In this document: positions 7,660-37,522 of the stretch, one piece after another | Position numbering within the stretch: the stretch's first letter is position 1 | How the letters are laid out: each line of letters begins with the position of its first letter | Source of the DNA: Oscillibacter sp. | GTDB lineage: Bacteria; Bacillota; Clostridia; Oscillospirales; Oscillospiraceae | NCBI GenBank assembly: GCA_022797935.1 | Contig: JAAWLO010000012.1 | Span: forward strand, 1-40,836 | DNA: 40,836 nucleotides | Direction of reading: 5' to 3' | Made by a program: the position numbers and the translations under genes | The notes under the pieces: model-generated | What the model saw: only the letters and a program-made list of their open reading frames with translations | Told to the model about the DNA's origin: nothing | Databases searched by the model: none

Positions 7660-9273
<1,614 letters not shown>

Positions 9274-9512: not shown

Positions 9513-9549
9513 TAGGCAGGTACTTCATTTTCTGAAGGAGGTTCTCGGT

Positions 9550-10365: not shown

Positions 10366-10373
10366 GAACTCAA

Positions 10374-10412
10374 CAAGCGCCCCGCTTCCGGATTTCCGGG
10401 GGGGGGCGCTTG
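10374..10412. terminator. Bidirectional terminator between DUF975 and ECF genes
   Basis: CAAGCGCCCC (10374-10383) pairs with GGGGCGCTTG (10403-10412), a 10-bp stem. T-containing sequence follows on the plus strand and TTGTTGAG on the minus strand. Confidence 0.75.
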
Positions 10413-10426
10413 TTTGCTGCTTGGCG

Positions 10427-17111: not shown

Positions 17112-20100
17112 CCGACCGGAATATCATTGCCGCCAAGGAAGACCTGAGCCACATGTCCACTGACGAGATTTTGCAATGGCTGAAAGACACGGTGCTCCCC
17201 GTCAAAGTCCGCGGCTGGAGCAGTCCTGATAGTTGGAATGGCTCTACTTACAATAACCTGCAAAACGCTGGTTTCACATTAGACGGGCCGGATAAGCAAG
17301 ACGAACCGAAATTTGAAACAACAGCGGGCGACCCTATACTTTATGAAAGCCCGCTATATAAATGGGGCACTGTCCCCATTGAATGGCAAGGGTTCCCAGC
17401 CAGCTTTGAAGTGGACAAAGCCTATACTCTTACCGCAATCGTTCCGCCGAAGACTGTGAGTGGTAAAACCTATCAAATTTATGTAAACTCTAATGATTCA
17501 GAAGATTACAAAGGCACGCCCCCCAATAAAGACACCAGTACCAAACCCGACATCCTCAGCTTCACAGTCACCCTGAAAGAGATCAATCTTTCGGAACACG
17601 TTGTCGCTCCCGCCAGCCCGGACAATGTCACCGTCAACCTCTTCGACTACTGGGTCAAGGAGCAAACCCCGTCCGCCGCCACTGACGGGGACATTCTGGG
17701 GAAAAGCGACACCCACTTCCACGAAGAGGGCGGCGAGGGGTTGCTGGGCGACAAACCTACCGGATATTCCACCAGGAATGACTGGGACCTGGGTATCAAC
17801 AAGGGCCATCTCCTGCTCTTCGGCGACGGCCTGATTCACGCCGGACTCTGGAACAAGGGCGCAGGCGAGAACTGCCGCTATGGCAAACGGTATGCCGGTA
17901 TGGAGGGAATTGTCCAGAACCGGCTTGTGGCTGACGGGGATGCGGACCGGAACGGTGACCCCAATCAATACGGATATCCCGTTTTGAACCTCGCCCAAGC
18001 GGATAAGATTCTCACCGGTGGTGAGAACGGCGATCCCAAGCGGGACCATACCCTGATCAAGGACTGGAAATTGACCGGAGACCATACAAGTGAATTAAAA
18101 CCCGGCACCGGCAATTTTGACTACACATCCAGCGATATCCAGAACCTCAGCAACACGGTTATTGGCACCTGGGGCGGAGACATCAACTCGGACACGGAGT
18201 CCCTGCAATACCTCTTTGATCCCAATATGACCCACAACTACAAAACCAGTTACACCGACGTGAAGGGTCTGTTCCAGCTGGACGACAACGGGTATTACTA
18301 CTACAACATGCGGAGGAACTTTGCCGAGTTCCAGGGCGTTCCGCACACGCCGGGAACGGAAGCGGAGGAAGGCAATCACTTTATTTTATATGATGCCCCT
18401 GCCACAACCCGCACAGACGCCACAAGCACAAAATCCAGCATTGGCAACTTCTTCCCCTTCAACAAGGGCTCTGAGGTCTTCAACGGCATGAAGGCGGATG
18501 GAACCTTGACCAGCAGTGTGAACTGCGCCCGCAACGCCATGAACCACCACCTGGGCATGACGGTGAACGTGGACTTCTGCCAGCCCGCAAACGGCATGAT
18601 TCACACCGGCAGCGGCAGCAAGCCCATGACCTTCGGGTTCTCCGGAGATGACGACGTCTGGATTTTTATCGACGGCGTTCTGGTGCTGGACCTGGGCGGC
18701 ATCCACAGCGAGCTCTACGGTACCATTGACTTTTCCACCGGCGAAGTTTGCATTGGCCGGGCCTTCGGCGTTGAGGACATTCCGGAAAACCCGGCGGACC
18801 CCAGCATCCTGGTCACAAGAACTACTCTCAGAGAGCTGTTCAAAGCTGCCGGGGAGGACACCAGCGACAGCTCCAAGTGGGCCAACAATACCTTCGCCAG
18901 CAACACGGAACACACCCTGAACATGTTCTACCTGGAGCGGGGCAACTACGACTCCAGCATTGCCCTGCGGTTCAATCTCCAGCCTCTGCTCCACCAGAAA
19001 ATGATTAAGGTGGATCAAGACGGCATGCCGCTCAACGGCGTGAAATTCGCCTTGTATCCGGCGGAGGAGACGGCTGTGGAGACGGCGGACGCAATTTCCT
19101 GTCTTTACACTGATAACCCCAAGAAGGTGGGGCCCTTCCTGGTCCGGAAAAGCGAGACCAATCCCGCTGACGATACCCCGCTGAACGGGAAAGCGCTGAT
19201 CGAGATCACCACAGGCGGTCCCGGCGCGGAAGCCGGCGAGGCGGTCTTCCAATATCCGGACGGGGAGTACTTCAACTTCGCGGACCTCGGAAACCGGTAT
19301 TACATCCTCGAGGAGCTTGAGGCGCCGGAGGGGTACCGCAAGCAGCCGGTTCCCATTGTGCTGTATTATGACCAGGAGACCGCCATGCTCTCCGTGGCCA
19401 ACCGCTGGACGACCGGCGCTTACGCCTGCTCCACCTCCTACGATACCAGTGCCGGAAGGCTGACCTATGGCGTCCTTAACGGCGACAAGATTGTCGACTC
19501 CAAAACGCAGGTGCCTGCCAGCCTGGTTCCCGGGGAAAAGAACGATTTGCGGGATGGACTGGTGGTGGCGGTTCCCATGCTTCTGCAAAGGAGCACCGGC
19601 GCCTGGGTTCCGCTGTACGGCAGCAACCTGGGCGGATTCCACGCCGTCAGGCCCGCGGGGAATTCGGAAGAGGCTTGGAAGGCCGCTGTTCTGGAAGCGG
19701 CGCTCCATCAGGCGGGCAACGCCAAGGAGGACAGCCGGTATTTCCGCTGGCATCTGGATTGGGAAGCCGACAACCACCGCTTGATTGGCACACTGGATGA
19801 CCTCCCGGGCCTCGCCAGCCGCTATCAGCTCAGCTACGAAAACGCCGGTGAAAGCGGCGGCGACATGCGCATAGTCTACGGTATTATCGGCGGGGATACC
19901 CTGAACTCGCTGGGGATTCGAGGCAGCAGCGGGGCGGAGCGCTACGAGAATCTCATGGATTACGTAAACGCCGAGGGGGTAGAGACGGCTCTGGAGGAAA
20001 CCGGCAGCGGCTTCCGATTCCTGGTGGCTAGTCAATTCAACCGGAATTTCCGTTCTCTCGTCTACATTCCCAATGAGCGGCGGGAGCTGCGGGTCATGAA

Positions 20101-22243
20101 GGTGGACCAGGACGGCAAGCCCCTGCCCGGCGCGGAGTTTACCCTTTACCGGAAGATAGATAACAGTGTGGTCACCTCCGGCCTCACGGATGCCAACGGA
20201 ATGCTGGTCTTTTCTCCCACGGGAAACAACGGTACCCCGGGGCAGGCCCAGGCCATTTGGGCAAATGCCTCCGTAGAAGACCGCTATTACTTAAAGGAGA
20301 CCAAAGCCCCGGCTGGGTATGATGTGAATTCCACGGAGATTCCCGTAGTGGTGGGCACCTACTCCATCTATGCCGACGCGGGCACAGAGGACGACGGCGT
20401 TCTTGTCATGGCAGGCGCAGGCCGCTTGACCCAGACCATGCGCCAGTACGCGGAGGGCAACGACGTGGATATTACCCTCCAGGACATTACCGCCATTATG
20501 CAGACCCAGGACAGCGGCGCGTTCAAGATGGACGGCTGGGAGGATGTCCGACTGGCGGACAGCAGTGAACTCAACAGCAGCAACCTGCATTTCCACAAGA
20601 ATCATGTGATTGACTACGGTCTGCATGACGACGACGGCGGCCAAATTTATAAGCCTTACTTCATCACGGATACAGGCTTTGTCCGTACGCGGGTGGTGCA
20701 GAACTTTGATCCCAGGAACGGCGATGGCGAACGCTACGACGGTACCGTAGCTTCGGACATCAACAAGGATGATTTGGGCAGCACCAATCTGACCAATCTT
20801 TTCAGTCTGGTGAATGTGGTAGTGGTGACTGACGAGAGCAGGACGGAGACCAACACCGGCAAGCTGACCATTTCCAAGACGGTGGAGAATCCGCAGCCGG
20901 ATGAGGCAAAGAAGCTGTTCAGCTTCCAGCTGGAGCTGAAAGACGCCGGCGGCAATCCGCTGAGCGGAGAGTTTTACTATTATTTCCATGGTGAGACCTA
21001 TGAGGGCCGGGTTAAGGTTACCAACGGCCAAGCCGAGACACTGAAGCTTCACCATAACCAGTCCATCACCATTCTGGGTCTGCCCGCGGGGACTGTGTAC
21101 GAAGTGACCGAAGCGGTCCCGGAGGGCTGGCATGTCCAGGAACCCGCTGGCGGCACGGCAACGGGAGAAATCCAGAAGGATGAAACGGCAGACGCCAGCT
21201 TTGTCAACAGCCGGACGCCTGGAACTCCGGAACCCGGACCCAGAACCGGCGGCATATCCATCCATAAAATCGTAAATCCCGCGCCGGCTGTCAGCCGGGA
21301 ATTCAGCTTCACCCTCACCCTGAGCGGCGACAGTGAAAGCGGAACCAATGGCAGCGCGGTCAATGGGAAGTACGGCGATTTGAATTTCGAAAAGGGCAAG
21401 GCGAAGTTTACACTTCGCCACGACGAAACCAAAACGGCGAACGATCTGCCTGCTGGGCTGAACTACGTTGTGGAAGAGGAAAAAGCGGAGGGCTATGTTG
21501 CTGTTTATATCAATGGCCGCGGCTCTGTTCTCGCCAACAATGTCATTGCAGTTTCCGTTTCAAATAATGGAGACGGTGATGGTGACAGCGACGGCGATAG
21601 TGACGGTGACAGCGACGGTGATAGTGACGGTGACAGCGACGGCGATAGTGACGGCGATAGTGACGGCGATAGTGACGGTGACAGCGACGGCGATAGTGAC
21701 GGCGATAGTGACGGTGACAGCGACGGCGATAGTGACGGTGACAGCGACAGTGATAGTGACGGCGACAGTGATGGTGATGATGATGCCGACGCGGATGCTG
21801 ACGCGGATGCGGACGCCGACGCTGATGCGGATGCTGACGCTGACGCGGATGCTGACGCTGACGCCGACACTGATGCGGATGCTGACGCTGACGCTGACGC
21901 CGACACTGACGAAGGTGAGGAGGCGCCTCCTTCGGAAGAACCTCCAGAACCTGACACGCCGCCGGAATATCCCACGGAGCTGCCGGACCCCAATGATCCC
22001 GACAGTCCGGATGAGATCACGATATTGGAAGACGGCGTACCCCGGACCTACCTGAAGATTTGGGACCCGGAAAATGAGGAGTGGGTCTATCTTCCGGAGG
22101 ATGAAATTCCTCTGGCGTGGCTGGATGATTCTCCTGCCACCGGCGATGTCCGCCAGACAGATTTGTGGCTGGCGCTCAGCGGCCTGTCCCTCTGCGGCCT
22201 GACGGCAATCGGTCTCTCCGGCCGCAGGAAGAAGAAGTCGTAA
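16991..22243 (+). CDS. Giant surface adhesin, C-terminal part (after frameshift)
   Basis: About 1,750 residues continue the adhesin. In order: a long N-terminal region; a fibro-slime/PA14-like domain (18500-18990; [20 protein letters not shown]); two SpaA/Cna-B type isopeptide domains, each opening with MxKVDQDGxPLxG (near 18998 and 20096); two further beta domains opening [10 protein letters not shown] (20866) and [10 protein letters not shown] (21255); an aspartate-rich repeat (21569-21912); a proline/glutamate stalk; and a sortase signal SPATGD (22130) with a hydrophobic helix and RRKKKS tail. SPxTG fits the (S/P)PxTG motif reported for the C. difficile sortase. The segment near 17230-17560 is visibly lower in G+C. 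No start codon with a ribosome site exists for this part, so alone it would not be made. Confidence 0.85.
21569..21912 (+). repeat. Tandem DGDS and AD codon repeats in the adhesin
   Basis: From 21569 to about 21780 a 12-base unit encoding D-G-D-S repeats about 14-16 times. It alternates two synonymous versions (GGTGACAGCGAC and GGCGATAGTGAC), giving a higher-order 24-36 base period. From about 21785 to 21912 a 6-base unit encoding A-D repeats about 20 times. Such arrays change length by slippage or recombination. DxDxDG spacing resembles calcium-binding loops, and SD repeats are stalks in staphylococcal adhesins. Confidence 0.9.
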
Positions 22244-24228: not shown

Positions 24229-25065
24229 ATGGAGAAGATTTACGAGATATTTGGTCTGGACGCGCACAGTATGACCCTCTCCCTTCTGGAGGCCGCAGAT
24301 GTTGCCTCGGCCATTCCCGCCGGGGCCTCCGTAGCCCTGAAGCCGAATCTGGTGGTGGCCGGAACTCCAGACAGCGGCGCTACCACCCATGCCGGTATCC
24401 TCTCCGGATGTATGGAGTACCTGCAGGCCCATGGGATTCGAGATATCAGCGTCATAGAGGGATCCTGGGTGGGAGCCCGAACAGACCGGGCCATGCGGGC
24501 CTGCGGCTATGACAAGGTGTGCAGACATTATAACGTTCCCTTTTATGACCTGAAGCAGGATGAGACCCGCCGGGTGGAAACGCCTCTGCGGCCAATGGAT
24601 ATCTGCCGCCGGGCGTTGGAGGCGGATGTCCTCATCAACCTTCCCGTACTGAAAGGCCATTGCCAGACGGTGATGACCTGTGCCCTGAAAAACTGCAAGG
24701 GCTGTCTTCCGGACCGGGAAAAACGCCGGTTCCACGCCGAGGGGCTGACCGAACCCATTGCGGCCCTGGCCGCCGCGCTGAAGCCCGCGCTGACCATTGT
24801 GGACGGCATCTGCGGGGACCTGAACTTTGAGGAGGGCGGCAATCCGGTTCCCACCAACCGGATGTTTCTGTGTGCGGACCCGGTGCGGGCGGATGTCTAC
24901 GGCTGCCGTCTGATGGGCCTGGAGCTGGCAGATGTGCCCTATATTGGGCTGGCCGCGCAGTGGGGCGCGGGATGCGCGGAAATCGGACCGGAGGATGTGG
25001 TCACCCTGAATGCCCCCAGGCGGGAGCGGAGTATCCCCCGCCCTCCGGCCTGGTCCGGCAGCTGA
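24229..25065 (+). CDS. DUF362 protein, N-terminal part (frameshifted)
   Basis: A DUF362 family protein, probably an iron-sulfur protein of unknown reaction. Family words are visible: ALKPNLVVAGTPDSGATTH (about 36-54), then a VIEGSWVG loop, VLINLPVLKGHCQTVMTCALKNCKG (about 145-169) and LTIVDGICGD. After NAP (25009-25017) this frame gives an unrelated arginine/proline tail and stops at 25065. The family-like sequence continues in another frame as a cysteine-rich C-terminus to 25310. The switch falls in a run of five C (25013-25017) and one missing C would repair it. GGAGGAGAG precedes the ATG. Its operon partner is glycerate kinase. Confidence 0.85.
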   Translation: MEKIYEIFGLDAHSMTLSLLEAADVASAIPAGASVALKPNLVVAGTPDSGATTHAGILSGCMEYLQAHGIRDISVIEGSWVGARTDRAMRACGYDKVCRHYNVPFYDLKQDETRRVETPLRPMDICRRALEADVLINLPVLKGHCQTVMTCALKNCKGCLPDREKRRFHAEGLTEPIAALAAALKPALTIVDGICGDLNFEEGGNPVPTNRMFLCADPVRADVYGCRLMGLELADVPYIGLAAQWGAGCAEIGPEDVVTLNAPRRERSIPRPPAWSGS

Positions 25066-25310
25066 CCCGAATGGTCCGGCAGGACAGCGCCTGTTCCGCC
25101 TGTTACGCGGCTCTGGTCCGGGGCTTGTACATTGCCCGGGAGGAGGGCATTCCGGTAAAACAGGAAATCGCGGTTGGGCAGGGCTGGAAGGGAAAACGCG
25201 TGTCCTGCCTGGGCGTGGGAGCCTGCTGCGGCGCAGCGGAGTCCTGTGCTCCCGGCTGTCCGCCCACGGCGGCGGCGGTGGTAAAGCTTCTTCGGGAACA
25301 GGCGGGATAA
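25014..25310 (+). CDS. DUF362 protein, C-terminal part after frameshift
   Basis: About 98 residues continuing the DUF362 protein: QAGAEYPPPSGLVRQLTRMV, then CSACYAALVRGLYIAREEG, and a tail with CLGVGACCGAAESCAPGCPP. The clustered cysteines suggest an Fe-S or other metal site. It has no start codon or ribosome site of its own, so expression needs the frame restored. In the intact form the protein would be about 360 residues, a normal length. Confidence 0.75.
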   Translation, partial: PQAGAEYPPPSGLVRQLTRMVRQDSACSACYAALVRGLYIAREEGIPVKQEIAVGQGWKGKRVSCLGVGACCGAAESCAPGCPPTAAAVVKLLREQAG

Positions 25311-25318
25311 TCTGGGAT

Positions 25319-25351
25319 ACAGACAGTTTCTCGCGGGAGGCTGTCTGTTTT
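25319..25351 (+). terminator. Terminator of the glycerate kinase/DUF362 operon
   Basis: ACAGACAG (25319-25326) pairs with CTGTCTGT (25341-25348), with an inner CTC/GAG helix, followed by TTTTCC. Confidence 0.75.
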
Positions 25352-25398
25352 CCTTTGCCGCTCGTTCCATAGCGGGGCGCTTTTTGGGCGGGAACGCC

Positions 25399-25427
25399 TT
25401 GAAGTCTGCCGGAGCCCATGGTAAAAT
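25399..25427 (+). promoter_or_regulatory. Promoter of the SWIM/MoxR/VWA operon
   Basis: TTGAAG (25399-25404), a 17-base spacer and TAAAAT (25422-25427), 46 bases before the first start codon of the operon. It follows the terminator of the previous unit, so the five genes form a separate transcript. Confidence 0.7.
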
Positions 25428-25472
25428 AAAAAAATAGTCCATTGCTGCAAACGCAAAAGGAGTGAGAGATTC

Positions 25473-26909
25473 ATGGTATTGACGGAACAGATGATTCAGC
25501 TTCAGGCGCCCAATTCGTCGGCCGTGGAGAATGGGCGGAAACTGTCCAAAAAAGGAAGCTTCTCCGCCCATTGCCGGACAGAGGACGGTTCCCTGTACTG
25601 GGCCCAGTGTGCCGGCAGCGGCAAGACACCTTACCGGGTCTCCATTGACTGGACGGCGCCGGATGCTCCCGTGTGCCGGTGTTCCTGTCCCAGCCGGCAG
25701 TTCCCCTGTAAGCACGCTCTGGGCCTGATGTTTGAGCAGCTGTCCGGCAAGGTATTTGAGACGGCGGACATCCCCCCGGATCTTGCTGAAAAACGGGCCA
25801 GACAGGCGGCTCGAAGCGTAAAAAAAGAAGCCGCCTCCGGAGAACTCCCCAAGCCCAAAAAGGTCCATGCCGCCGCCCAAAAGAAGAAACTGTCCCGGCA
25901 GCTGGAGGGGCTGGACATGGCGGAGAAGATGGTAAACGATCTGGTTTCCGCCGGTGTAGGCACTTTGGCGGGCAGTTCCGCGCAGGTATACGACAAGCTG
26001 GCCCGGGATTTGGGCAGCTGTTATCTCACGGGGCTTCAGACGGCCTTTACCCGCATAGCCCTGACGGTGCGCGCCGTGCAAAAATCCCCGGACCAGGCGG
26101 AGCGGGTGTATGCCGAAGCTCTGCGCATTCTGGTGTCCCTGCGTTCCACCATCAAAAAGTCCCGGGTCTTTCTGGAAAACAAGCTGGAGGCGGGCAGTTT
26201 TTCTCCGGAGGATTCCGTCCTCTTCGAGGCCTTGGGCGGGGTGTGGAAGCTGGAGGATTTGCAGGCCATTGGGTCTTACCAGGAGAATGCCCGGCTGGTC
26301 CAGCTGTCCTTTGATGTGCGCTTTGACGAGGCGAAGAAGGAGTACATAGAGCGGGGCTGGTGGCTGGAGCTGAACAGCGGAACCATCTTTCAGACGAGGA
26401 ACCTGCGTCCGCTGAAGGCCCTGAAATACATAAAGGGAGACGACAGCCGCTTCGGTCTGCTGGAGGTCCCCGTTCTGTACATATACCCCGGGGAGGGGGA
26501 CCGGCGGGTCCGCTGGGAAAACGCGGTCTCCCGGCCTCTTGGACCGGAGGAGCAGGCCAGGCTGTCATCCCTGGCGCAGCCGGATTTGGCGGCGGCGGTG
26601 AAGCGGACCAAGGGTGTGATTAAAAATACCCTAGCGCCCAAATTCCTGGCGGCACTGCTTCCGGTAGGGCGCTTGGGGAGGATTGACGGCACATTTGTGC
26701 TGGAGGACCCTGCGGGAAGCCGGATTGTCCTGCGGGACCGGCCCGGGGAGGGAAATGCCCCCACAGCCCGGCTGGCCATGCTTCCGGGGGAACTCCCCCC
26801 GGGCAGCGCCTTGTTCGGCCTGCTGTTTTATGCGGAGGAGGACCGTTCCCTCTGCCTGCATCCTTACAGTGTGGTGACCCGGTCGGAGATCATCCGGCTG
26901 CAATATTGA
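25473..26909 (+). CDS. SWIM zinc-finger protein, first gene of the MoxR/VWA operon
   Basis: A 478-residue protein with an N-terminal SWIM domain. The zinc ligands CxC...CxH are Cys70, Cys72, Cys79 and His81 (CRCSCPSRQFPCKHALGL). A basic linker (about 110-145, KKEAASGELPKPKKVH) leads to a long helical region (about 150-270) and a C-terminal mixed region containing WWLELNSGTIFQTRNL and YIYPGEGDRRVRWE. SWIM fingers bind DNA or proteins. AAAAGGAG precedes the ATG. It starts an operon with HEAT-like, MoxR, DUF5682 and VWA genes, a set I recognise as recurring in actinomycetes and some Firmicutes but without a proven function. The C-terminal part resembles no other family I can name. Confidence 0.88.
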   Translation: MVLTEQMIQLQAPNSSAVENGRKLSKKGSFSAHCRTEDGSLYWAQCAGSGKTPYRVSIDWTAPDAPVCRCSCPSRQFPCKHALGLMFEQLSGKVFETADIPPDLAEKRARQAARSVKKEAASGELPKPKKVHAAAQKKKLSRQLEGLDMAEKMVNDLVSAGVGTLAGSSAQVYDKLARDLGSCYLTGLQTAFTRIALTVRAVQKSPDQAERVYAEALRILVSLRSTIKKSRVFLENKLEAGSFSPEDSVLFEALGGVWKLEDLQAIGSYQENARLVQLSFDVRFDEAKKEYIERGWWLELNSGTIFQTRNLRPLKALKYIKGDDSRFGLLEVPVLYIYPGEGDRRVRWENAVSRPLGPEEQARLSSLAQPDLAAAVKRTKGVIKNTLAPKFLAALLPVGRLGRIDGTFVLEDPAGSRIVLRDRPGEGNAPTARLAMLPGELPPGSALFGLLFYAEEDRSLCLHPYSVVTRSEIIRLQY

Positions 26910-26922
26910 GGGGGTGGCTTCT

Positions 26923-28863
26923 GTGAATTTACAGCCTCTGTATGATGTGAAGGAGCGGCTGGAACAGGCCGCCATTGCCGGAACCGGCTTGCTGGAGGAA
27001 GATTTCCGCCTCCAGCGGGCGGCGGAGAATCTGAAGCCTCTGGCGGCCGCCAGCCCGGTATTCGGAAAGATCTCCGCCGGGCTGGAAAAACTCCTGGCCG
27101 CCCCTGCGGCGGAGCACCCCGGCCTGCTGCTGGACCTGCTGGCACTGGTGGACGCGGTGGCCTACACCCAGGGGAAAACCGGCATAGAGGGAGAACTGGA
27201 ACCGCTGCCCACAGGACATGGGCAATACCAGGAGCTGTCCTGCGGTCAGCTTTCCCCCCTGCTGGAGGCCCTGACCAGCACCGGCGGCGGGCGGATGGAG
27301 ATTGTCCAGAGCGCGTGGGAAAATCATCCGGAGTACTTTTCCGAGTACCGGGTGCTGCCCTGTCTGATTCAGGATTTGGGGGACAAATTTACCTATTTGG
27401 CGAATCTGAACGTCAAAATCCTGACGGCCCTGGGCCCCGCTGTGGTTCCCGCGCTGAAAGAGGGCTTTGATCCCGCCGGGAAGGCGGCTATGGCCCGGCG
27501 GGTGGAAATTCTGGACGCGGCAGTGGGGGCGGCGGAAAACGAGTTCTATCTGGAGATGCTCCCCAAGGCCAGGAAGGATGTGCAGCTGGCGCTGATCTGG
27601 GCTCTGCGCCACGACCCGTCCAATGGTCTCAAGCTGCTGGAGCTGAGCCAGACCAAAAAGGGCGACGCGCAGGAGACGGCCTACCGGGCTCTGGCCTCCT
27701 CCCGTTCCCCGGAGGCGCAGAAGTATTTTGAAGAGCTGGCGGAGGAGCATGCAGACCTGACGCTGCGGTATCTTGCGCAGACGGCGGAGAAGGTGGACTG
27801 GGCCAGCCGCCTGACCGCCCGGCTGTTCCGGGCGGAGCTGGACCGGATAGCGGAAAATCCCCAGCTTCCCTTGACAAAGGAGCTGGAAAGACGCTTTAAG
27901 GTGCTGCTGGAAGCCCTCCGGAATAAGAGCGGTCCGGAAATCCGGGACGTTTACCGCCGTGCCGCCGCCTTGGGGGAGCAAGTGGAGCGGATGCGCACCT
28001 CCGGGGACCAGCCCATGAAGTTTGACGTCAGTTTCGGCCTGCGTCAGGCGGCGGAGGACAGCGGTTTCCGTCAGTCGGTCTGTCGGACTCTGGAAGGGAT
28101 GCTGATGCGGGACCCGGACCCGGAATGGAAGGCCCTGGCGCTGGAGCTGTACGAAGAGTATGGAAATCTCTACCTGGCCCCCGCGCTTCTCGCGCAGCTT
28201 CTCTCCCAGGACAGCGCCGCCTGCTATGAATGGGCGGAGGCGCGTTTTTTCCGGACCGCCGCCCCGGAGAGCCGGACGGTAGACCCAGAGGCCGTAAGGG
28301 CCTTTAACCGGGTGTTTGGAAACGTCTGCTGGATTCCGCGGCGGGAGCGCTATGAGATTTCACCTCTGTGGAATTACGGGGAGGACGCCCCCTTCATCAC
28401 CCCGCTGCCGCTCTTGGACCCCCGCTGGTTCGGCCTCTTCACAAAGGCGGGGAAGTCCATGGACCACCTGCTGGTCAGTCTCCTGCAGGAGCGGCGGCAG
28501 GCGCCGGAGGTCCTGGCCCAGATGGGCGCTTACCTGTACCGCCGGGCGGTCACCGGGGACAACCCCAACTATACGGAGTGGTATATTCGGATTCTCAGCG
28601 GCCTGGGCTGGACGGATTGGACGGACTTTTTCCCCGAGCGGGGAAAGCGGGTGGGGGAGTTCCTTTACCTGGAACTGAAGATGGGACTGGAACGGATGCC
28701 GGTTCCCCTGGAAGAGAAAATCCGCCAGCTGGAGCAGCTCAGCGAACTGGCCCGGCAGAAGAAGGTCCAGATTCGCTACAAGGGCTGGCCGGAGGAGGCG
28801 ATCCAGGATTGGATTACCCAATGGAAACTGGAAGAGAGGAAAGGGGAAGACCAGCATGTCTGA
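26923..28863 (+). CDS. HEAT-like alpha-helical repeat protein (possible DUF5691)
   Basis: A 646-residue, almost entirely helical soluble protein with repeated paired helices of the HEAT/ARM style in the middle (LPKARKDVQLALIWALRHDP, GDAQETAYRALASSRSPEAQ, YFEELAEEHADLTLRYLAQ). The position between the SWIM and MoxR genes is the one DUF5691 proteins occupy in related operons, but I cannot confirm that family from sequence alone. A GTG at 26923 with GAGGGGGTGG five bases upstream is preferred over a GTG at 26914 that overlaps the ribosome site. It starts 13 bases after the SWIM gene and its stop overlaps the MoxR start by eight bases. A scaffold role is inferred. Confidence 0.8.
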   Translation: MNLQPLYDVKERLEQAAIAGTGLLEEDFRLQRAAENLKPLAAASPVFGKISAGLEKLLAAPAAEHPGLLLDLLALVDAVAYTQGKTGIEGELEPLPTGHGQYQELSCGQLSPLLEALTSTGGGRMEIVQSAWENHPEYFSEYRVLPCLIQDLGDKFTYLANLNVKILTALGPAVVPALKEGFDPAGKAAMARRVEILDAAVGAAENEFYLEMLPKARKDVQLALIWALRHDPSNGLKLLELSQTKKGDAQETAYRALASSRSPEAQKYFEELAEEHADLTLRYLAQTAEKVDWASRLTARLFRAELDRIAENPQLPLTKELERRFKVLLEALRNKSGPEIRDVYRRAAALGEQVERMRTSGDQPMKFDVSFGLRQAAEDSGFRQSVCRTLEGMLMRDPDPEWKALALELYEEYGNLYLAPALLAQLLSQDSAACYEWAEARFFRTAAPESRTVDPEAVRAFNRVFGNVCWIPRRERYEISPLWNYGEDAPFITPLPLLDPRWFGLFTKAGKSMDHLLVSLLQERRQAPEVLAQMGAYLYRRAVTGDNPNYTEWYIRILSGLGWTDWTDFFPERGKRVGEFLYLELKMGLERMPVPLEEKIRQLEQLSELARQKKVQIRYKGWPEEAIQDWITQWKLEERKGEDQHV

Positions 28864-29947
28864 CAAAAATGTACTGCGTCTCCCGGCGGAGGAACTTTTT
28901 CAGAGGGAGCTGGACGCCCTCATTTCAGCGGAGACTGGCACGGTTCCCACCGGGTGGCGGATGTCGCCCAAGTCGGTTCTCGCCTACATCACCGGCGGCA
29001 CGAAGGTGAAGGGTGTGGACATCACGCCCAAGTATATGGGCAGTAAACGGCTGGTGGAAATCGCCATTGCCACGCTGGTCACGGACCGGGCCCTGCTCCT
29101 CACCGGCGAGCCGGGTACCGCCAAATCCTGGCTCAGCGAACATCTGGCCGCCGCAGTCAACGGCGACTCGACCAAGGTGGTCCAGGGCACCGCCGGAACC
29201 ACAGAGGAGCAGATTCGCTACTCCTGGAACTATGCCATGCTGATTGCGAAGGGACCCTGTCCGGAAGCCCTGGTAAAGAGCCCGGTATACCGGGCTATGG
29301 AGACGGGCTCAGTTGCCCGCGTTGAGGAAATCTCCCGCTGTGCCAGCGAGGTGCAGGACGCCTTGATTTCCATTCTGTCGGAAAAGCGGCTCAGCGTTCC
29401 GGAGCTGGGCCTGGAGGTCCCCGCCGCGAAGGGCTTCTCGGTCATTGCCACCGCCAATACCCGGGACAAGGGCGTCAACGACATGTCCGCCGCGCTGAAA
29501 CGGCGCTTCAACATAGTGGTGCTGCCCACGCCGTCCGATATGGAGACGGAGATGGAGATTGTGCGTACCCGAGTGGCACAGATGTCTGCGGGACTGGACC
29601 TGAATGCCTGCCAGCCCGGGGAGGACACGGTGGAAAAGGTGGTCACCATCTTCCGGGAGCTGCGTTCCGGGGCCACGCTGGACGGCAGGCAGAAGCTGAA
29701 AGCCGCCTCCGGCGTGCTGTCCACGGCGGAGGCCATCTCCCTGCTGGCCAACTCCATGGCGCTGGCCGGCAGCTTTGGGGACGGTTCCATCACACCCATG
29801 GATTTGGCGGCGGCCCTGCAGGGGGCGGTGGTCAAGGACGAGGACAAGGACGCGGTCACCTGGAAAGAGTATTTGGAAAACGTGATGAAAAAGCGGGGCT
29901 CCGCCTGGCTGCCCCTCTACCGGGCCTGCCGGGAGCTGAATTCATGA
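28856..29947 (+). CDS. MoxR-type AAA+ ATPase
   Basis: A 363-residue AAA+ ATPase of the MoxR class, typically a chaperone that remodels partners together with a VWA protein. Walker A is GEPGTAKS at 84-91. The Walker B position reads SVARVEEIS (152-160), with Glu in place of the usual Asp before the catalytic Glu. The helix SEVQDALISILSEKR that follows is typical of MoxR. Sensor 1 is Asn201 in ATANTRDKGVND and an arginine finger candidate is in LKRRFN. The length fits. It overlaps the previous gene by eight bases and the DUF5682 gene by four, implying coupled translation and a fixed protein ratio. The E-for-D exchange may be a subgroup trait. Confidence 0.93.
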   Translation: MSDKNVLRLPAEELFQRELDALISAETGTVPTGWRMSPKSVLAYITGGTKVKGVDITPKYMGSKRLVEIAIATLVTDRALLLTGEPGTAKSWLSEHLAAAVNGDSTKVVQGTAGTTEEQIRYSWNYAMLIAKGPCPEALVKSPVYRAMETGSVARVEEISRCASEVQDALISILSEKRLSVPELGLEVPAAKGFSVIATANTRDKGVNDMSAALKRRFNIVVLPTPSDMETEMEIVRTRVAQMSAGLDLNACQPGEDTVEKVVTIFRELRSGATLDGRQKLKAASGVLSTAEAISLLANSMALAGSFGDGSITPMDLAAALQGAVVKDEDKDAVTWKEYLENVMKKRGSAWLPLYRACRELNS

Positions 29948-32208
29948 GGACGGGACCGGTATTGTTCGGGGTGCGCCACCTGTCTCCGGCGGCGGCCGTG
30001 CAGCTGCGCCGTGCGCTGGACGAGGTCCGGCCCCAGCTGGTGTTGGTGGAGGGCCCCAGCGACCTGAACGGCCAGATGAAGTGGCTGTGCCACCCGGAAA
30101 CCCGGTTTCCCGCCGCGATTCTGGCGTATACCCGGCAGCCGCCGGTGCGTACCATTCTGTATCCCTTCGCCATTTATTCCCCGGAGGTGCAGGCCATTTT
30201 GTGGGCCCATGCCCACGGGGTGGAATGCCGGTTCATGGACCTGCCCTCCTCGGTGTTTCTGGCTCTGGAGGCCGGGAAGAATCCCCGGGAAGGGGAGGAA
30301 GCGGAGGCCGCGCGGTCTACCGAGCGTATCTACCAGCGGCTGGAGACGCTGACCGGCGAGAGTCACGACGTCTTCTGGGAGCGGAATTTTGAGCAGCTGG
30401 AGGCGGGTGCTTATCAGGCGGCGGCCAATACCTTTGGCCGGGAGCTGCGGGCGTCGTTGGCGGAGACCCCGGTCCGCGCGGCGGAAACCGTGATCCGGGA
30501 AGCCTACATGAAGCGGGTCATCTGTCAGGCGGTGGACGGCGGCATTCCTGCGGAAAAAATATTCTGCGTCTGCGGGGCGTTCCATGTAGAGGGGCTGGAG
30601 GAATGCGAGCCCATGACCGGCGAGGAGGCCGCCGCCCTGCCCCGGGCGGACGCTTTGGCCACCCTGATGCCCTACTCCTATTACCGTCTGTCCTCCCGCT
30701 CCGGCTACGGTGCAGGAAACCGGGCCCCGGCCTATTTTGAACTGCTGTGGGACGCCCTCAACGGCGGCGGACTGCAGGAGGTTCCCCTCCGCTACCTCAC
30801 CCGGCTGGCTGCCGCTCACCGGAGGGCGGGCAATCTGGTATCCCCGGCTGAGGTGATTGAGGCGGCGCGGCTGGCAGATAGTTTGGCGGCCATGCGGGGG
30901 AGCCGGTATCCTGCCCTGTCCGACCTGCGGGACGCCTCCGTCGCCACCATGGGCCATGGGCAGTTCTCAGAACTGGCTCTGGCGGCGGCGGATACGGAAA
31001 CCGGCAAAAAAATCGGCTTCCTCCCGGAGGGGGTCAGCCGCACCAGCGTGCAGGAGGATTTCTACCGCCAGCTTCAGGAACTGCGGCTGGAGAAATTCCG
31101 CAGCGCCGTGCTTCAGCGGCTGGATTTGGACCTGCGGGAGAAGCTGCATGTGAAGTCGGAGACCGCCGCCCTGACGGACCTGCGCCGTTCCTTCTTTCTC
31201 CACCGCCTGCGGGTTTTAGACGTCCATTTCGCGGTCCTCCTTCCCTCCCGGCAGAAGGGGGCCAGCTGGGGGGAATATTGGGAGCTGCGCTGGACGCCGG
31301 AGGCGGAAATCGAGATTGTGGAATCCGCCCTCCTGGGGGACACCATAGAGGCCGCTGCGGCCTACGCCCTGAAGGAACGGGGCGAGGAGAGCGCCTCCAT
31401 TGCCCAGGCTGCCGCCATTTTTGAGGACGCCTTTCTGTGCGGCATGCCTGCGGCCGCCGGTCACGCCCTGTCCGTGCTGCAGGGGCTGAGCGTGGATTCC
31501 GCCACCATTGCCGGCGTGGCGGAGACGGCCTCCCGGCTGTCCTTGGTGGTGCGCTATAGCGATCTGCGCCGGTTTGATTCCGCGCCGGTAATTCCCTTCA
31601 TCAAGCAGCTGTATCTGCGGGCCTGCCTGACGCTGAAAGAGGCCTGCGTCTGTGACGCTGAGGCCTCCCAGGCGGTGACAAAAGCCATGGACCAGCTCAA
31701 CGCGCTCCAGCTCAATCATGACTTTCTGGAGGAAGACCGCTGGCTCAGCCTGCTGGCGGAAATCTCCGACCGGGACGATTTGAACACCCGCTGTTCCGGC
31801 TTTGCTATGGCCATCCTGCTGGAGCGGGGCAGGGCGGACGAGGAACTGCTGTCCCGGGAAGTGGCCCGGCGGCTGTCTCCCGGCATCCCTGCGGATCTGG
31901 GGGCGGGATGGTTTGAGGGACTGGCCGCCAAAAACCGCCGGGCGCTCCTGCTCCGGCTGTCCCTGTGGCGGCACCTGGACCGCTACCTCTCCGGCCTGGA
32001 TGAGGCGGCTTTCCGCCGGGCGCTGGTTTTTCTGCGCCGGGCCTTTGCAGATTTTTCACCCGGGGAGAAAAACGACATAGCGGAAAACCTGGGTGAAATC
32101 TGGGGCGTCTGCCCCCAGCAGGCGGCGGAAGCCCTGATGAAAGAGACCACCCAGGCGGAACAGGAGCTGCTGGACAGCCTGGAGGATTTCAATTTTGACG
32201 ATATCTGA
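29944..32208 (+). CDS. DUF5682 protein with TraB/Tiki-like GxxH motifs
   Basis: A 754-residue soluble protein. The first 220 residues show two GxxH motifs, GVRH at 9-12 (LFGVRHLSPAAA) and GAFH at 211-214 (CVCGAFHVEGLEE), plus VLVEGPSD with Glu36. This spacing of GxxH, Glu and second GxxH recalls the TraB/PrgY/Tiki/EreA/ChaN-like superfamily, whose members include metal-dependent proteases and esterases. The rest is helical (about 225-754). DUF5682 has no experimental function known to me. The ATG overlaps the MoxR stop by four bases. The enzyme idea is inference; a purely binding role is possible. Confidence 0.85.
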   Translation: MRTGPVLFGVRHLSPAAAVQLRRALDEVRPQLVLVEGPSDLNGQMKWLCHPETRFPAAILAYTRQPPVRTILYPFAIYSPEVQAILWAHAHGVECRFMDLPSSVFLALEAGKNPREGEEAEAARSTERIYQRLETLTGESHDVFWERNFEQLEAGAYQAAANTFGRELRASLAETPVRAAETVIREAYMKRVICQAVDGGIPAEKIFCVCGAFHVEGLEECEPMTGEEAAALPRADALATLMPYSYYRLSSRSGYGAGNRAPAYFELLWDALNGGGLQEVPLRYLTRLAAAHRRAGNLVSPAEVIEAARLADSLAAMRGSRYPALSDLRDASVATMGHGQFSELALAAADTETGKKIGFLPEGVSRTSVQEDFYRQLQELRLEKFRSAVLQRLDLDLREKLHVKSETAALTDLRRSFFLHRLRVLDVHFAVLLPSRQKGASWGEYWELRWTPEAEIEIVESALLGDTIEAAAAYALKERGEESASIAQAAAIFEDAFLCGMPAAAGHALSVLQGLSVDSATIAGVAETASRLSLVVRYSDLRRFDSAPVIPFIKQLYLRACLTLKEACVCDAEASQAVTKAMDQLNALQLNHDFLEEDRWLSLLAEISDRDDLNTRCSGFAMAILLERGRADEELLSREVARRLSPGIPADLGAGWFEGLAAKNRRALLLRLSLWRHLDRYLSGLDEAAFRRALVFLRRAFADFSPGEKNDIAENLGEIWGVCPQQAAEALMKETTQAEQELLDSLEDFNFDDI

Positions 32209-32269
32209 AAAAGGAAGCCGGTACCACTCGGAAATTCCCGAGCGGATTCTGACCCGGAGGTGAGACACA

Positions 32270-33415
32270 ATGGCACAACCGGAACAGCTTGCCCGCTGGC
32301 GGCTGATTCTGGGTTCCGAGACCCAGGATTCCTTTGTCAATATGGGCGGAGCGCCGCTGTCCCAGGAAGAGGCGCTGATGGACTCCGCCCTTGGCGCCAT
32401 CTACGGTGGGCCGGGGGAGGGCTTTGACGCATTGGGCCGGGGCGCGGGAAAGGGCCCGTCCTCCCCGCTGATTTCCAAGTGGCTGGGAGACCTGCGCACG
32501 CTGTTTGACCCGGAGACCGTGGCGGTGGTGCAGAACGACGCCATTGAGCGCAAGGGACTGAAACAGCTGCTGCTGGAACCGGAGCTGCTGGACAGCCTGG
32601 AACCGGACCTGAATCTGGCTTCCACGCTGCTGATGCTGAAGGACCAGATTCCCAAGAAGTCCAAGGAGTCCGCCCGCAGGTTTATCCGGAAAATCGTGGA
32701 GGAAATCAACCGGAGGCTGGAGAACGACATGCGCCGGGCAGTGACGGCGGCGCTGAACCGCCGGGCCCATTCCCCTCTGCCCTCTGCCGCCGCGCTGGAT
32801 TTTCCCTATACCATCCGGCGCAATCTGAAGAACTACCGTCCGGAATTGGGGGCGGTCATTCCGGAGCGGGTATGGTTTTTTGACCGCTCCAGCCGGGCCA
32901 GCCGGTGGCACGTCATCCTGGATATTGACCAGAGCGGGTCCATGGGGCAGTCCATTCTCTATTCCTCCGTAATGGCCTGCATCTTGGCCTCCATGTCTGC
33001 CGTCAGGACCCATGTGGTGGCCTTTGATACGCAGATTATGGATCTTACCCCGCTGTGCGCCGACCCGGTGGACCTGCTGTTTGGCTTTCAGATGGGAGGC
33101 GGAACGGATATCGCGAAGTCGGTTGCCTATTGTCAGGGATTGGTGGAGACGCCGTCCAAAACCCTCTTGTTCCTCATCTCGGACCTGGAGGAGGGGGGAA
33201 ACCGGGCGGCGCTTCTGCGGCGGCTGGAGGAACTGAAGGCCTCCGGCGTCCGGGTGGTGGTTCTGCTGGCCATTGCGGACGGCGGCAAGCCGTACTACGA
33301 CGCGCAGACCGCCCAGCGGATCGCCGCCATGGACATCCCCTGCTTCGCGTGCGCGCCGGAGAAGCTGCCCCAGCTGCTGGAACAGGCGCTGACCGGACGG
33401 CTGGAGGGTTTTTAA
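32270..33415 (+). CDS. VWA (CoxE-like) protein with intact MIDAS
   Basis: A 381-residue cytoplasmic protein closing the operon. An N-terminal helical region (about 1-195) contains acidic and basic helices (LLMLKDQIPKKSKESARRF). The C-terminal von Willebrand A domain has a complete metal-ion-dependent adhesion site: DxSxS at Asp220, Ser222, Ser224 (DIDQSGSMGQ), Thr279 (GGGTDIAKS) and Asp305 (LISDLEEGG). There is no signal peptide, so it works inside the cell, as CoxE-type partners of MoxR ATPases do. A 61-base gap separates it from DUF5682 and GGAGGTGAG precedes the ATG. No clear terminator follows. Confidence 0.93.
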   Translation: MAQPEQLARWRLILGSETQDSFVNMGGAPLSQEEALMDSALGAIYGGPGEGFDALGRGAGKGPSSPLISKWLGDLRTLFDPETVAVVQNDAIERKGLKQLLLEPELLDSLEPDLNLASTLLMLKDQIPKKSKESARRFIRKIVEEINRRLENDMRRAVTAALNRRAHSPLPSAAALDFPYTIRRNLKNYRPELGAVIPERVWFFDRSSRASRWHVILDIDQSGSMGQSILYSSVMACILASMSAVRTHVVAFDTQIMDLTPLCADPVDLLFGFQMGGGTDIAKSVAYCQGLVETPSKTLLFLISDLEEGGNRAALLRRLEELKASGVRVVVLLAIADGGKPYYDAQTAQRIAAMDIPCFACAPEKLPQLLEQALTGRLEGF

Positions 33416-33545
33416 GACCCTGCCTTTTGCCTGGCGGGAAAAATCCTCTTCCATCCAGCATTCCCCGGCTGTGAATACAGGTTCCAAGTGCTGCCGGATG
33501 ACCGCCTGACAAATAAGCGTCAGCCGTGAAAGGGAGGAGAAGAAT

Positions 33546-33968
33546 TTGAAGATATACAATAAGCAAGCGTTTGTGTTCGGGATATTCTGCGCAGGCGGAC
33601 TGCTGTTTTTTGCCTTGGGCGTCATACCGGCGGACTGGTGGCAATGGGGGATTACCCTGGCCATAGCGGGCAGATACCTGTATCTGGGATTGTCCAAAAC
33701 GGCGGGGGAACAGGAGGCGGCCATTGGTCAGAAGTATAAGGAAACGGCTGTTAAGCTCTACGGGAAGTACGCTTTTTTGAAAACACATCTTCCCATTTTT
33801 CTGCTGGCGGCTTTTTTTGTCACGGCCTTGGCTGTCCGCTTTGTTTTTGATTGCGTTCCCGTTTGGTTCGCGGCTGTCTTCTGCGTTGTGCTGATGCTTT
33901 CCGCCGCCTACAGCATGGGACTGGAACGGAGTATCAGAAATGCCGTTATAAACGAGAAAAAGCCGTGA
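33546..33968 (+). CDS. Small integral membrane protein of unknown function
   Basis: A 140-residue protein with four hydrophobic segments (about 8-26, 32-47, 82-102, 105-124), a hydrophilic middle containing KTAGEQEAAIGQKYKETAVK, and a basic end. It starts with TTG at 33546, preceded by AGGGAGGAG at the right distance; no ATG is suitable. I recognise no family. It lies 130 bases after the VWA gene, without an obvious terminator between them, so read-through from the operon is possible, and 53 bases before the M20 peptidase. Confidence 0.7.
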   Translation: MKIYNKQAFVFGIFCAGGLLFFALGVIPADWWQWGITLAIAGRYLYLGLSKTAGEQEAAIGQKYKETAVKLYGKYAFLKTHLPIFLLAAFFVTALAVRFVFDCVPVWFAAVFCVVLMLSAAYSMGLERSIRNAVINEKKP

Positions 33969-34021
33969 ATGATTTCACCAGCGCGGGTATGACCAATATA
34001 AAACATAGGAGTTGAAGGAAC

Positions 34022-35182
34022 ATGACAGCTGATTCTGAGGCAATGGAAGCGGTCCGGCTCACACAGCAGATGGTCCGCATTGAGAGCAGCAATCCCGGTA
34101 CCTACGAGGAGGCTATGGCCGTCTTCGTATCCGAATGGCTCAGCCGGAACACGGCCGCCGAAGTGCGCCGGGAGCCGGTGCATCCGGGGCGGGACAATGT
34201 GACGGCTGTTTTGCGGGGAGAGTCCCAGGCGCATAATCTGACCTATATCTGCCACATGGACACCATGCCGGCAGGCGAGGGATGGGATACGCCTCCCTTT
34301 GCGGCGGAAATCATAGACGGAAAGCTGTATGGCCGGGGCGCCTGCGATATGAAAGCCGGTCTGGCCGCCGCCATGATTGCCTTCCGGAATCTTTCCCGGC
34401 TGGGCAGGCCGCTGCGCTATGATTTCCAGCTGATTGCCACAGTGAATGAGGAAGACGCCATGACCGGCGCGGAGCAGGCGGTGCGGGACGGCTATGTGAA
34501 CGCGGACAGCTATGTCTTGGACGCGGAACCCACAGACAGCCGGATTCAGGTGGCCCACAAGGGCAAGACCTGGTTTGAGCTGACCACCCGCGGCAAGACC
34601 TGTCACGCCAGCATGCCCCAGAAGGGCTGTGACGCCATTGCCGCTATGGCGGAGATCATCACCCGTGTCAGACAGAAGCTGGCAGACCTGCCGGTCCACC
34701 CGGAGATGGGCCCCTGCACCGCCACATTCGGCACCATTCAGGGGGGCTGGAATCCCTATATCGTTCCCGACGCCTGCAAGGCCACCCTGGACATGCGGCT
34801 GGTGCCGCCGGTCAGCAATGCCCAGTCGGTTGCCCTGGTACAGGAGGCGGCTGCTGAAGGCCTGGCGGCGGTTCCCGGCGTGACCTGTGACTGTGTGGTC
34901 ACGGCGCAGCGGCCCGCCATTGAGAAGGACGGCGGTTCCTTCCTGCTGAAGAAGCTGCGGAAGGCGGCGGCGGAGGTCACCGGCGGGGAGCTTCCTGTGG
35001 ATTTCTTTCCCGGCTATACCGATACGGCGGTCATTGCCGCCATGACTGGCTGCCGTAACTGCATGTCCTTCGGCCCCGGGAGTCTGGAGCAGGCCCACCG
35101 GCCCAATGAATTTGTCCCCTGCGGGGAGATTGTCCGCTCAGCGGCGGTGATGACCCGGCTGGCGGAGGATATTTTGCTGTAA
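34022..35182 (+). CDS. M20 family metallopeptidase (ArgE/DapE type)
   Basis: A 386-residue zinc amidohydrolase. The dinuclear metal site is visible: His78 and Asp80 (ICHMDTMP), bridging Asp109 (GRGACDMKAG), general base Glu143 with Glu144 (VNEEDAMTG), Glu169 (LDAEPTD) and His359 near the C-terminus (EQAHRPNE). A dimerisation/lid domain of about 180-290 includes HKGKTWFELTTRGKTCHAS. The family includes succinyl-diaminopimelate desuccinylase, acetylornithine deacetylase and carboxypeptidase G2; the substrate cannot be told from sequence. The neighbours give no pathway. GAAGGA precedes the ATG and a terminator follows at 35300-35340. Confidence 0.92.
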   Translation: MTADSEAMEAVRLTQQMVRIESSNPGTYEEAMAVFVSEWLSRNTAAEVRREPVHPGRDNVTAVLRGESQAHNLTYICHMDTMPAGEGWDTPPFAAEIIDGKLYGRGACDMKAGLAAAMIAFRNLSRLGRPLRYDFQLIATVNEEDAMTGAEQAVRDGYVNADSYVLDAEPTDSRIQVAHKGKTWFELTTRGKTCHASMPQKGCDAIAAMAEIITRVRQKLADLPVHPEMGPCTATFGTIQGGWNPYIVPDACKATLDMRLVPPVSNAQSVALVQEAAAEGLAAVPGVTCDCVVTAQRPAIEKDGGSFLLKKLRKAAAEVTGGELPVDFFPGYTDTAVIAAMTGCRNCMSFGPGSLEQAHRPNEFVPCGEIVRSAAVMTRLAEDILL

Positions 35183-36850: not shown

Positions 36851-37522
36851 ATGAAAAAGTTTCTTTCTCTCTTTCTTCTAACGGCCATGGTTCTGACCCT
36901 GCCCGTCTTTGCCCACGGCCACGGCGGCGGCCATCACGGCGGCGGCCGGAGCGCCGGTCAGAGCGCCAGCGTTTCCGTCTGCCCGGTGACGGGCTGCACG
37001 CTTGCCGGACGGCATAGTCACAATGGAAGAACCTATTGCGGCTATGGCCACGGAAACGGTGTTTGTGCCGGTACCTGCCATGCCCTCTGCACAGTGGAGG
37101 GTTGCACGCTGGCCGGGCCTCACAGCCACAACGGAGAGACCTATTGCGGCTACAGCCACGCGAATGGCTTTTGCGATGGTACCTGCCGCGCCCTCTGCCC
37201 GGTAGAGGACTGCGCAATTGCCGGGCGGCACACCCACAACGGCGTGACCTATTGCGGCTACAGCCACGCAAACGGTTTTTGCGATGGTACCTGCCGCGCT
37301 CTCTGCCCGGTAGAGGACTGCGCAATTGCCGGGCGGCACACCCACAACGGCGTGACCTATTGCGGCTACAGCCATGCAAATGGTTTTTGCGACGGCACCT
37401 GCCACGCTCTCTGCACGGTGGCCGGCTGCACCGTCTCCGGGCTTCATAGCCACCGGGGCGTGACCTACTGCGGCGTCCATCACGCCGGCGGCTTCTGCGA
37501 GGGAATCTGCCACACGGCCTAA
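36851..37522 (+). CDS. Secreted Cys/His-rich protein made of five 36-residue repeats
   Basis: A 223-residue exported protein. A signal peptide (MKKFLSLFLLTAMVLTLPVFA, cleavage near 21-22) is followed by a short HGHGGGHHGGG linker and then exactly five 36-residue repeats (44-79, 80-115, 116-151, 152-187, 188-223) that run to the stop codon. Each repeat has the form CPVxxCxxAGxHxHNGxTYCGYxHxNGxCxGTCxAL, with five cysteines and three or more histidines. The spacing suggests metal binding or disulfide modules. The HxH...CGY core also occurs in the adhesin. There is no sortase signal, so it is probably free or wall-associated. GGAGG precedes ATG 36851. I know no named family. Confidence 0.85.
   Translation: MKKFLSLFLLTAMVLTLPVFAHGHGGGHHGGGRSAGQSASVSVCPVTGCTLAGRHSHNGRTYCGYGHGNGVCAGTCHALCTVEGCTLAGPHSHNGETYCGYSHANGFCDGTCRALCPVEDCAIAGRHTHNGVTYCGYSHANGFCDGTCRALCPVEDCAIAGRHTHNGVTYCGYSHANGFCDGTCHALCTVAGCTVSGLHSHRGVTYCGVHHAGGFCEGICHTA
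36980..37519 (+). repeat. Five tandem 108-base coding repeats
   Basis: In-frame direct repeats coding the 36-residue modules. Copies 3 and 4 (37196-37411) are nearly identical in DNA, which points to recent duplication or gene conversion; copies 1 and 5 are the most diverged. Confidence 0.9.

Follow-up and report, generated by a model that had tools for sequence, protein, structure and literature searches.

A conserved SWIM-HEAT-MoxR-DUF5682-VWA gene system in Oscillibacter sp. and its relatives in other phyla

Introduction

Do five adjacent genes on an Oscillibacter sp. contig (GCA_022797935.1, JAAWLO010000012.1) form one system, and what might such a system do? The whole stretch of DNA analysed here, called the window, is 40,836 nucleotides long. 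It contains five consecutive plus-strand open reading frames (ORFs) at positions 25473-26909, 26914-28863, 28856-29947, 29944-32208 and 32270-33415, and this ORF list bears out the gene coordinates of an initial annotation. In order, the genes encode a SWIM zinc-finger protein (P0001; 478 amino acids, fold model pLDDT 92.4), a HEAT-like helical-repeat protein (P0002; 26923-28863, with an alternative start at 26914), a MoxR AAA+ ATPase (P0003; 363 amino acids), a DUF5682 protein (P0004; 754 amino acids, model pLDDT 88.2, pTM 0.80) and a CoxE-type VWA protein (P0005; 381 amino acids).

The initial annotation ascribed an intact domain signature to each gene. Four of the proteins score above the Pfam cut-off: P0001 for SWIM (27.2 bits vs. 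19.6), P0003 for AAA_5 (131.4 vs. 22), P0004 for DUF5682 (484.2 vs. 26) and P0005 for VWA_CoxE (157 vs. 26.4). The HEAT_2 match of P0002 falls below it (24.3 vs. 27.7), and the HEAT slot is kept in relatives. None of the five proteins scores above the cut-off of any NCBIfam model.

Conservation of the five-gene unit

The five genes are one conserved system that is found across phyla. All five are present in 55 of 58 loci with enough flanking DNA, and 50 of the 58 have the exact order SWIM-HEAT-MoxR-DUF5682-VWA. The cluster genes lie on a single strand in all 58 loci, and 216 of 228 gaps between neighbors are 150 bp or less. These co-occurrence counts place the operon far above chance. They agree with the single conserved module that was initially annotated, a claim that was to fall if the genes rarely co-occurred.

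These loci come from a scan of GTDB contigs in which the query was an alignment of MoxR proteins of this kind, ten in number; of 590 confirmed relatives, the best 80 were taken. Genes were counted in the 58 loci with at least 6 kb before and at least 5 kb after MoxR; the other 22 loci are too short and were excluded. The sample is skewed toward relatives of the window MoxR, not toward the other four genes. The gene profiles started from seed proteins and were refined in rounds with the hits that each one gave. The VWA counts exclude DUF5682 frames, and the survey of fusions used a rebuilt VWA profile.

Among the 58 loci, the HEAT gene precedes the SWIM gene in two and extra HEAT copies are present in two. 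In one locus, DUF5691 stands in the place of HEAT, and VWA is followed by a DUF4132 gene. Three loci are incomplete: L028 lacks the SWIM, HEAT and VWA genes, and L068 and L081 both lack the SWIM and HEAT genes, with VWA fused to DUF5682 in L081. DUF5682 is present in 79 of the 80 loci.

Across 55 operons selected by length, among them that of the window, the five proteins vary together in pairwise identity, with r 0.88-0.95 for each of the ten protein pairs. This correlation points to joint descent, not to contact, because shared ancestry alone can produce it. Fusions link parts of the system and are new here. DUF5682 is fused to VWA in L008, L081, L127 and 12 of 20 further loci, which were partly picked for long frames, and SWIM is fused to DUF5691 in L006. 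MoxR is directly upstream in 11 of the 15 DUF5682-VWA fusion loci, and one other (L158) ends too soon to show it. The fusion in L127 lies at 7448-10429 (G025), and that in L153 has about 400 additional N-terminal residues.

When the flank families of the relatives are compared, no constant neighbor family is present. The commonest occurs in 15 loci at scattered distances from the operon. Another, which lies immediately before the operon in two lineages (L060 and a group of three Paenibacillus loci), occurs in seven loci in all and is absent elsewhere. Most other flank families are common to close relatives only. A gene that we take to be RtcB-like lies between DUF5682 and VWA in L054 (3499-4695), and such a gene is also near the operon in L074 and L078. 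The genes directly upstream of the SWIM gene in L040 (1271-6719) presumably resemble Wadjet-type condensin and nuclease genes.

Other layouts and the Escherichia coli yeh genes

The initial annotation stated that related gene sets occur in other phyla, and these were found. In Escherichia coli K-12, the order is yehL (MoxR)-yehM (DUF5682)-yehP (VWA)-yehQ (SWIM), with yehI (DUF4132) upstream. The MoxR, DUF5682 and VWA genes have the same order as in the window (38%, 25% and 35% identity, respectively) and a SWIM protein is present. Unlike in the window, the SWIM gene is last, no HEAT gene was found in the E. coli cluster and DUF4132 genes are upstream instead. YehQ is not significantly alignable to P0001, yet has a Pfam SWIM domain. 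The yeh version is core in E. coli, with yehM in 5284 of 5426 genomes and at least 80% of its length in 5166, whereas the system is patchy in the window's genus. An E. coli plasmid typed as conjugative (L010, NZ_CP103756.1) carries the yehI-mlrA stretch of the chromosome between two IS26 copies, beside resistance genes.

In Deinococcus, Rhizobium and Methylosinus, the order is SWIM-DUF5691-MoxR-DUF5682 and then VWA, which is intact in the first two and split in Methylosinus. On the Methylosinus plasmid copy (L007, 12214-13382), the VWA gene is in three overlapping frames. These clusters and those of Hymenobacter and Chitinophaga share the slot order of the window, and in some of them DUF5682 is preceded by an additional small gene. 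The MoxR proteins of Deinococcus, Rhizobium, Methylosinus and Hymenobacter are 54-56% identical to the window MoxR. The clusters differ from the window in that the second gene is DUF5691, which is not significantly linked to the window HEAT protein by profile comparison, and in that SWIM and DUF5691 are fused in Hymenobacter. In Agrobacterium, the order is MoxR-DUF5682-DUF4132-VWA-SWIM. Two relatives from the same genus as the window (G019 and G021) have the E. coli-like order MoxR-DUF5682-VWA-SWIM with different neighbors from the window; DUF4132 is present in G019, and the G021 contig ends before that position. HEAT and DUF5691 occupy the same position in their clusters, and DUF4132 may stand in for both. 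The HEAT profile weakly matches two DUF4132 proteins (E 7e-7 and 1e-5).

A phage system was rejected as a candidate. The viral_contigs scan with P0004, which covers close relatives only, confirmed none, and P0001 is unmatched in phages. An unverified fecal scaffold named 'Bacteriophage sp.' (L009, MT835988.1) carries MoxR-DUF5682-VWA at 75%, 52% and 62% identity and is probably bacterial DNA.

The description of the system as undescribed holds in part. Its MoxR already belongs to a named subfamily, YehL, in the available text of PMC3893208, and public records label its parts by domain name. No function for yehL, yehM, yehP or yehQ was found in the open-access literature searched (bioRxiv was outside this scope), and DUF5682 and DUF5691 are not named in the open-access papers among the matches listed. 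The accessible portions of two papers list a yehM mutation in copper evolution (PMC12409786) and a yehQ mutant in a butanol study (PMC6442406), in both cases with no function given.

The MoxR, VWA and SWIM proteins

P0003 is 38% identical to E. coli YehL (234 bits) and matches RavA at 22 bits; the comparison covered these two MoxR subfamilies. Its gene context fits the YehL subfamily, with DUF5682 and VWA directly downstream and SWIM in the cluster. By similarity and context, P0003 is thus assigned to the YehL subfamily of MoxR ATPases. Residues G84, G87, K90, S91, E157, E158, N201, R216 and R217 are each present in 55 of 55 aligned sequences.

P0005 is a CoxE-type VWA protein with a full DxSxS-T-D MIDAS, as in the NorQD and CoxDE pairs. 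The motif D220-x-S222-x-S224 (32927-32941, plus strand), together with T279 and D305, is likewise conserved at each position in 55 of 55 sequences. Remodeling by a MoxR-VWA pair is established for NorQD in the accessible text of PMC13036017 and PMC9976466. These features are consistent with the initial view of the MoxR-VWA pair as the likely ATP-driven part.

P0001 has a ZSWIM8-like N-terminus, which is new here. Its zinc ligands C70, C72, C79 and H81 (25680-25715, plus strand) are each conserved in all 55 aligned sequences, that of the window among them. Residues 262-472 (26256-26888, plus strand) possibly form two tandem OB folds, also new here. A sequence search of the PDB with the SWIM profile gives three matches at E 0.1-0.3, all without SWIM context.

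The DUF5682 protein

The DUF5682 protein is predicted to consist of an N-terminal TraB/Tiki-like domain (residues 1-225; 29944-30618, plus strand) with an H...E...R...GxxH set and a C-terminal HEAT-like helical solenoid (residues 454-748; 31303-32187, plus strand). This assignment is new here and is made because three routes agree: Pfam, profile-profile comparison and fold. In Pfam at E up to 10, TraB is matched by 7 of 49 DUF5682 members (best 7e-4) and ChaN by 3 of 49 (best 2e-4). Alignment of the N-terminal domain to TraB with hhalign gives a probability of 95 (E 3.8e-8) against 0.6 for a reversed control, and a second profile-profile comparison to TraB/Tiki gives 88.9 (E 2.4e-6). An alpha/beta core is common to the N-terminal domain and the TraB/Tiki superfamily. 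The best row in a viral structure library is a TraB family protein (E 0.019); the TraB row for the 754-residue model came from VIA re-alignment only. A Foldseek search of the PDB with this full model, which the solenoid dominates, returned nothing at E 0.001, and a PDB sequence search with the DUF5682 profile returned nothing.

Residues H12, E36, R185, G211 and H214 are invariant in 49 of 49 DUF5682 sequences and in a nine-sequence alignment that includes E. coli YehM. Fourteen TraB proteins have corresponding invariant H, E, R, G and H residues, with an identical H-to-E spacing of 24. H12 and E36 correspond to the active-site His-Glu pair of the superfamily, and H214 to its second active-site His. 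DUF5682 resembles the TraB/PrgY/Tiki/ChaN superfamily in profile, fold and these residues. Unlike that superfamily, it has about 500 more residues, which are partly solenoid, and it is usually beside MoxR and VWA. The putative hydrolase activity proposed at the outset gains support from this N-terminal domain.

Variability of the HEAT protein

The HEAT protein is the least conserved of the five. The median pairwise identity in the 55 operons is 0.71 for MoxR, 0.55 for VWA, 0.48 for DUF5682, 0.39 for SWIM and 0.22 for HEAT. Conservation per 25-residue block is 0.41-0.60 in residues 1-275 of HEAT and 0.11-0.35 beyond. By column conservation and identity to relatives, the hypervariable C-terminal half begins at residue 271, counted from 26914 (27724-28860, plus strand). 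Between the window and L024, L026 and L027, whose MoxR proteins are 88-91% identical to that of the window, HEAT identity is 62-65% over the first 270 residues and 27-32% after; one of the three HEAT copies in L027 was taken.

For the same three comparisons, dN/dS, taken as the ratio of the two computed rates, comes to about 0.08-0.11 for MoxR, 0.08-0.14 for VWA, 0.19-0.21 for DUF5682, 0.18-0.21 for SWIM, 0.39-0.55 for the N-terminal half of HEAT and 0.58-0.88 for the C-terminal half. In eight of eight other pairs, for which dS is mostly saturated, dN ranks MoxR < SWIM < HEAT N-terminal half < HEAT C-terminal half. Tandem HEAT copies are present in L025 (two), L027 (three), L058 (two) and L061 (three); copies from one operon share 47-75% identity. 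Because HEAT is the fastest-evolving of the proteins and is sometimes duplicated, which suits recognition more than a fixed scaffold, it is the best candidate for a recognition part, its C-terminal half in particular. This proposal is new here and departs from the initial assignment of recognition to the SWIM protein and of a scaffold role to the helical-repeat protein.

Distribution and defense context

DUF5682 scores above the Pfam cut-off in 3 of 25 genomes of the window's genus, with two layouts among the three, and in 8 of 398 genomes of its phylum. The corresponding counts are 7 of 198 in the phylum of Chitinophaga, 30 of 143 in that of the Myxococcales locus, 20 of 148 in that of Rhodopirellula and 3 of 6 in the genus of a Paenibacillus locus. 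The seed genome is part of these counts, a good many of the genomes from the window's genus are not complete, and the phyla are named as in the locus titles.

Enrichment near defense islands, one of the checks initially suggested, is not seen in the sampled flanks. At E 1e-15, five PADLOC families are matched among 110 flank proteins (of 440) and 22 among 110 controls (of 181). The family mad3 is matched by three flank and nine control members; each of the other families has a single match. Both sets are mechanical ORFs; the controls come from other stretches, are not matched genome by genome, and several control families may be one protein. For the operon proteins themselves, the PADLOC matches are limited to two, PDC-S62 at 15.6 bits and mad8 at 16.6 bits, each with E 0.0011. 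A defense role is weakened because the sampled flanks are not enriched in defense genes and the E. coli version is core.

Proposed mechanism and alternatives

The reading that we prefer, tentatively and at somewhat less than an even chance, is one ATP-powered machine that remodels and processes substrates and has an exchangeable adaptor. The unit, its families and its variability are observed, whereas the way in which the parts would work together is inferred. With MoxR-VWA as motor and clamp, the ATPase ring and its VWA partner would remodel a target that the MIDAS holds. HEAT would dock through its N-terminal half and bind the target through its variable half, and the SWIM protein may be a second recognition part or a nucleic-acid-linked part. 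The TraB/Tiki-like domain, predicted to be enzyme-like, would cleave or otherwise process the target. The HEAT slot would be that of the exchangeable adaptor, with DUF5691 there, or DUF4132 in the cluster, in other lineages; such replacement is as expected for an exchangeable adaptor.

Several observations weigh against this machine. In L086, MoxR is present without DUF5682, with other genes directly after it and 202 bases before it. Three DUF5682-VWA fusion loci (L127, L152 and L153) have room for MoxR but contain no match to it, and our confidence in the mechanism is slightly lower because such fusions lack a MoxR neighbor. Homology among HEAT, DUF5691 and DUF4132 was not found by profile comparison. 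HEAT dN/dS is lower in other pairs where dS is computable, and relaxed constraint is possible; because of these lower ratios and the largely saturated dS, positive selection on HEAT is not shown. The window P0004 itself matches DUF5682 alone in Pfam. Active Tiki enzymes have a 2His/2Glu motif in the available text of PMC6254334, and P0004 meets three of its four positions, with V10 in place of the Glu two residues before the first His; at the equivalent position, T is present in all 11 of the 19 TraB proteins for which the start is visible. The same text describes one Tiki-superfamily protein that lacks both the motif and the activity tested for. A direct hand-over from MoxR to the TraB/Tiki-like domain would likewise be conjectural.

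A narrower form of this machine, which we regard as doubtful, would be a new ATP-dependent processing protease. The MoxR ring and VWA would feed a TraB/Tiki-fold peptidase (DUF5682), and an interchangeable hypervariable adaptor (HEAT, DUF5691 or DUF4132) and the SWIM/OB protein would set the target. If true, such a protease would be unlike Clp, Lon, FtsH and the proteasome and would be present in nearly all E. coli. An unlikely alternative reads the MoxR-VWA pair, a CoxE-type VWA (157 bits) with a full MIDAS, as a chaperone for metal or cofactor insertion, similar to NorQD and CoxDE, that matures a metalloprotein, maybe the TraB/Tiki-like domain, with SWIM and HEAT as assembly factors. NorQ/NorD and CoxD/CoxE have the same pairing, NorQD drives metal insertion (PMC13036017), and Tiki is reported to depend on metal, whereas another member of its superfamily does not (PMC6254334). 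Unlike those pairs, the window system has three extra dedicated proteins and no constant adjacent client gene. No flank family is constant, but a metalloenzyme client could sit elsewhere or be DUF5682 itself. If the client were always the same, it would be strange for the system to keep a hypervariable HEAT protein dedicated to it.

The initial annotation saw a likeness to conflict systems. In that case, MoxR-VWA would set the threshold for a hydrolase effector, and the HEAT or SWIM/OB protein would sense an invader. The patchy presence in its own genus (3 of 25 genomes, two layouts) and the hypervariable, sometimes duplicated HEAT part are in its favor. So is the higher frequency in the Myxococcales-locus and Rhodopirellula phyla than in those of the window or Chitinophaga. 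The MoxR-vWA ternary conflict systems of PMC7159879 have a MoxR-vWA core with extra components; in the accessible text they prefer multicellular prokaryotes, and the window system too is commoner in some phyla with multicellular members. Unlike in those systems, VMAP, iSTAND, FtsH and beta-propeller domains were not found in the five proteins and five neighbors (Pfam, E 0.01), and the bpMoxR match of P0003 (26.9 bits) narrowly misses the cut-off of 27. The main text of that paper, as available, makes no mention of SWIM, DUF5682, the yeh genes, TraB or Tiki (its supplements were outside the search). With fewer PADLOC families in the flanks than in controls (5 vs. 22), no weighty match in the operon and yehM core in E. 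coli, a conflict or anti-phage role is quite improbable. The least probable of these readings is nucleic-acid-linked quality control, in which the SWIM protein would bind DNA or RNA through its possible OB folds and the machine would strip or process proteins there.

For the preferred machine, the TraB/Tiki placement of DUF5682 singles out three residues for mutation and suggests which activity an assay should look for, and the hypervariable half of HEAT points to where a target may be sought. The role of the YehL-subfamily MoxR is thereby directly testable in a laboratory strain.

Spacing, promoter and surroundings of the operon

A recount of the operon spacing confirms the initially annotated overlaps of 8 and 4 bases and the final gap of 61. 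The annotated gap of 13 between P0001 and P0002 applies to the second GTG (26923, with a ribosome-binding site judged by eye); from the first GTG (26914) it is 4. The annotated promoter is present as a pattern, TTGAAG-17-TAAAAT (25399-25427, plus strand), with 9 of 12 matches. It is not clearly above chance: three such sites occur in 25000-34100, compared with 1.6 +/- 1.3 in shuffles.

With regard to a diversity-generating retroelement, the analysis covered direct repeats of at least 40 nt, and none lies within the operon. The flanking genes P0007 and P0009 are unmatched in 39 other relatives (E 1e-40 and 1e-60), and therefore no empty site could be aligned. The neighbors of the operon, a DUF362 gene (24229-25062) and an M20-peptidase gene (34022-35179), are unmatched in these 39 relatives at the same thresholds, so that the surroundings look strain-specific. 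Elsewhere in the window, 17027-22243 (plus strand) encodes a surface- or pilus-like protein of 1738 amino acids with SpaA, DUF7601 and DUF5979 domains and a 12-nt repeat tract at 21497-21910. Direct repeats spaced 108 nt apart, in which a 216-nt register recurs as four overlapping copies, are present at 36975-37514, in a stretch whose plus-strand ORF is unmatched in Pfam.

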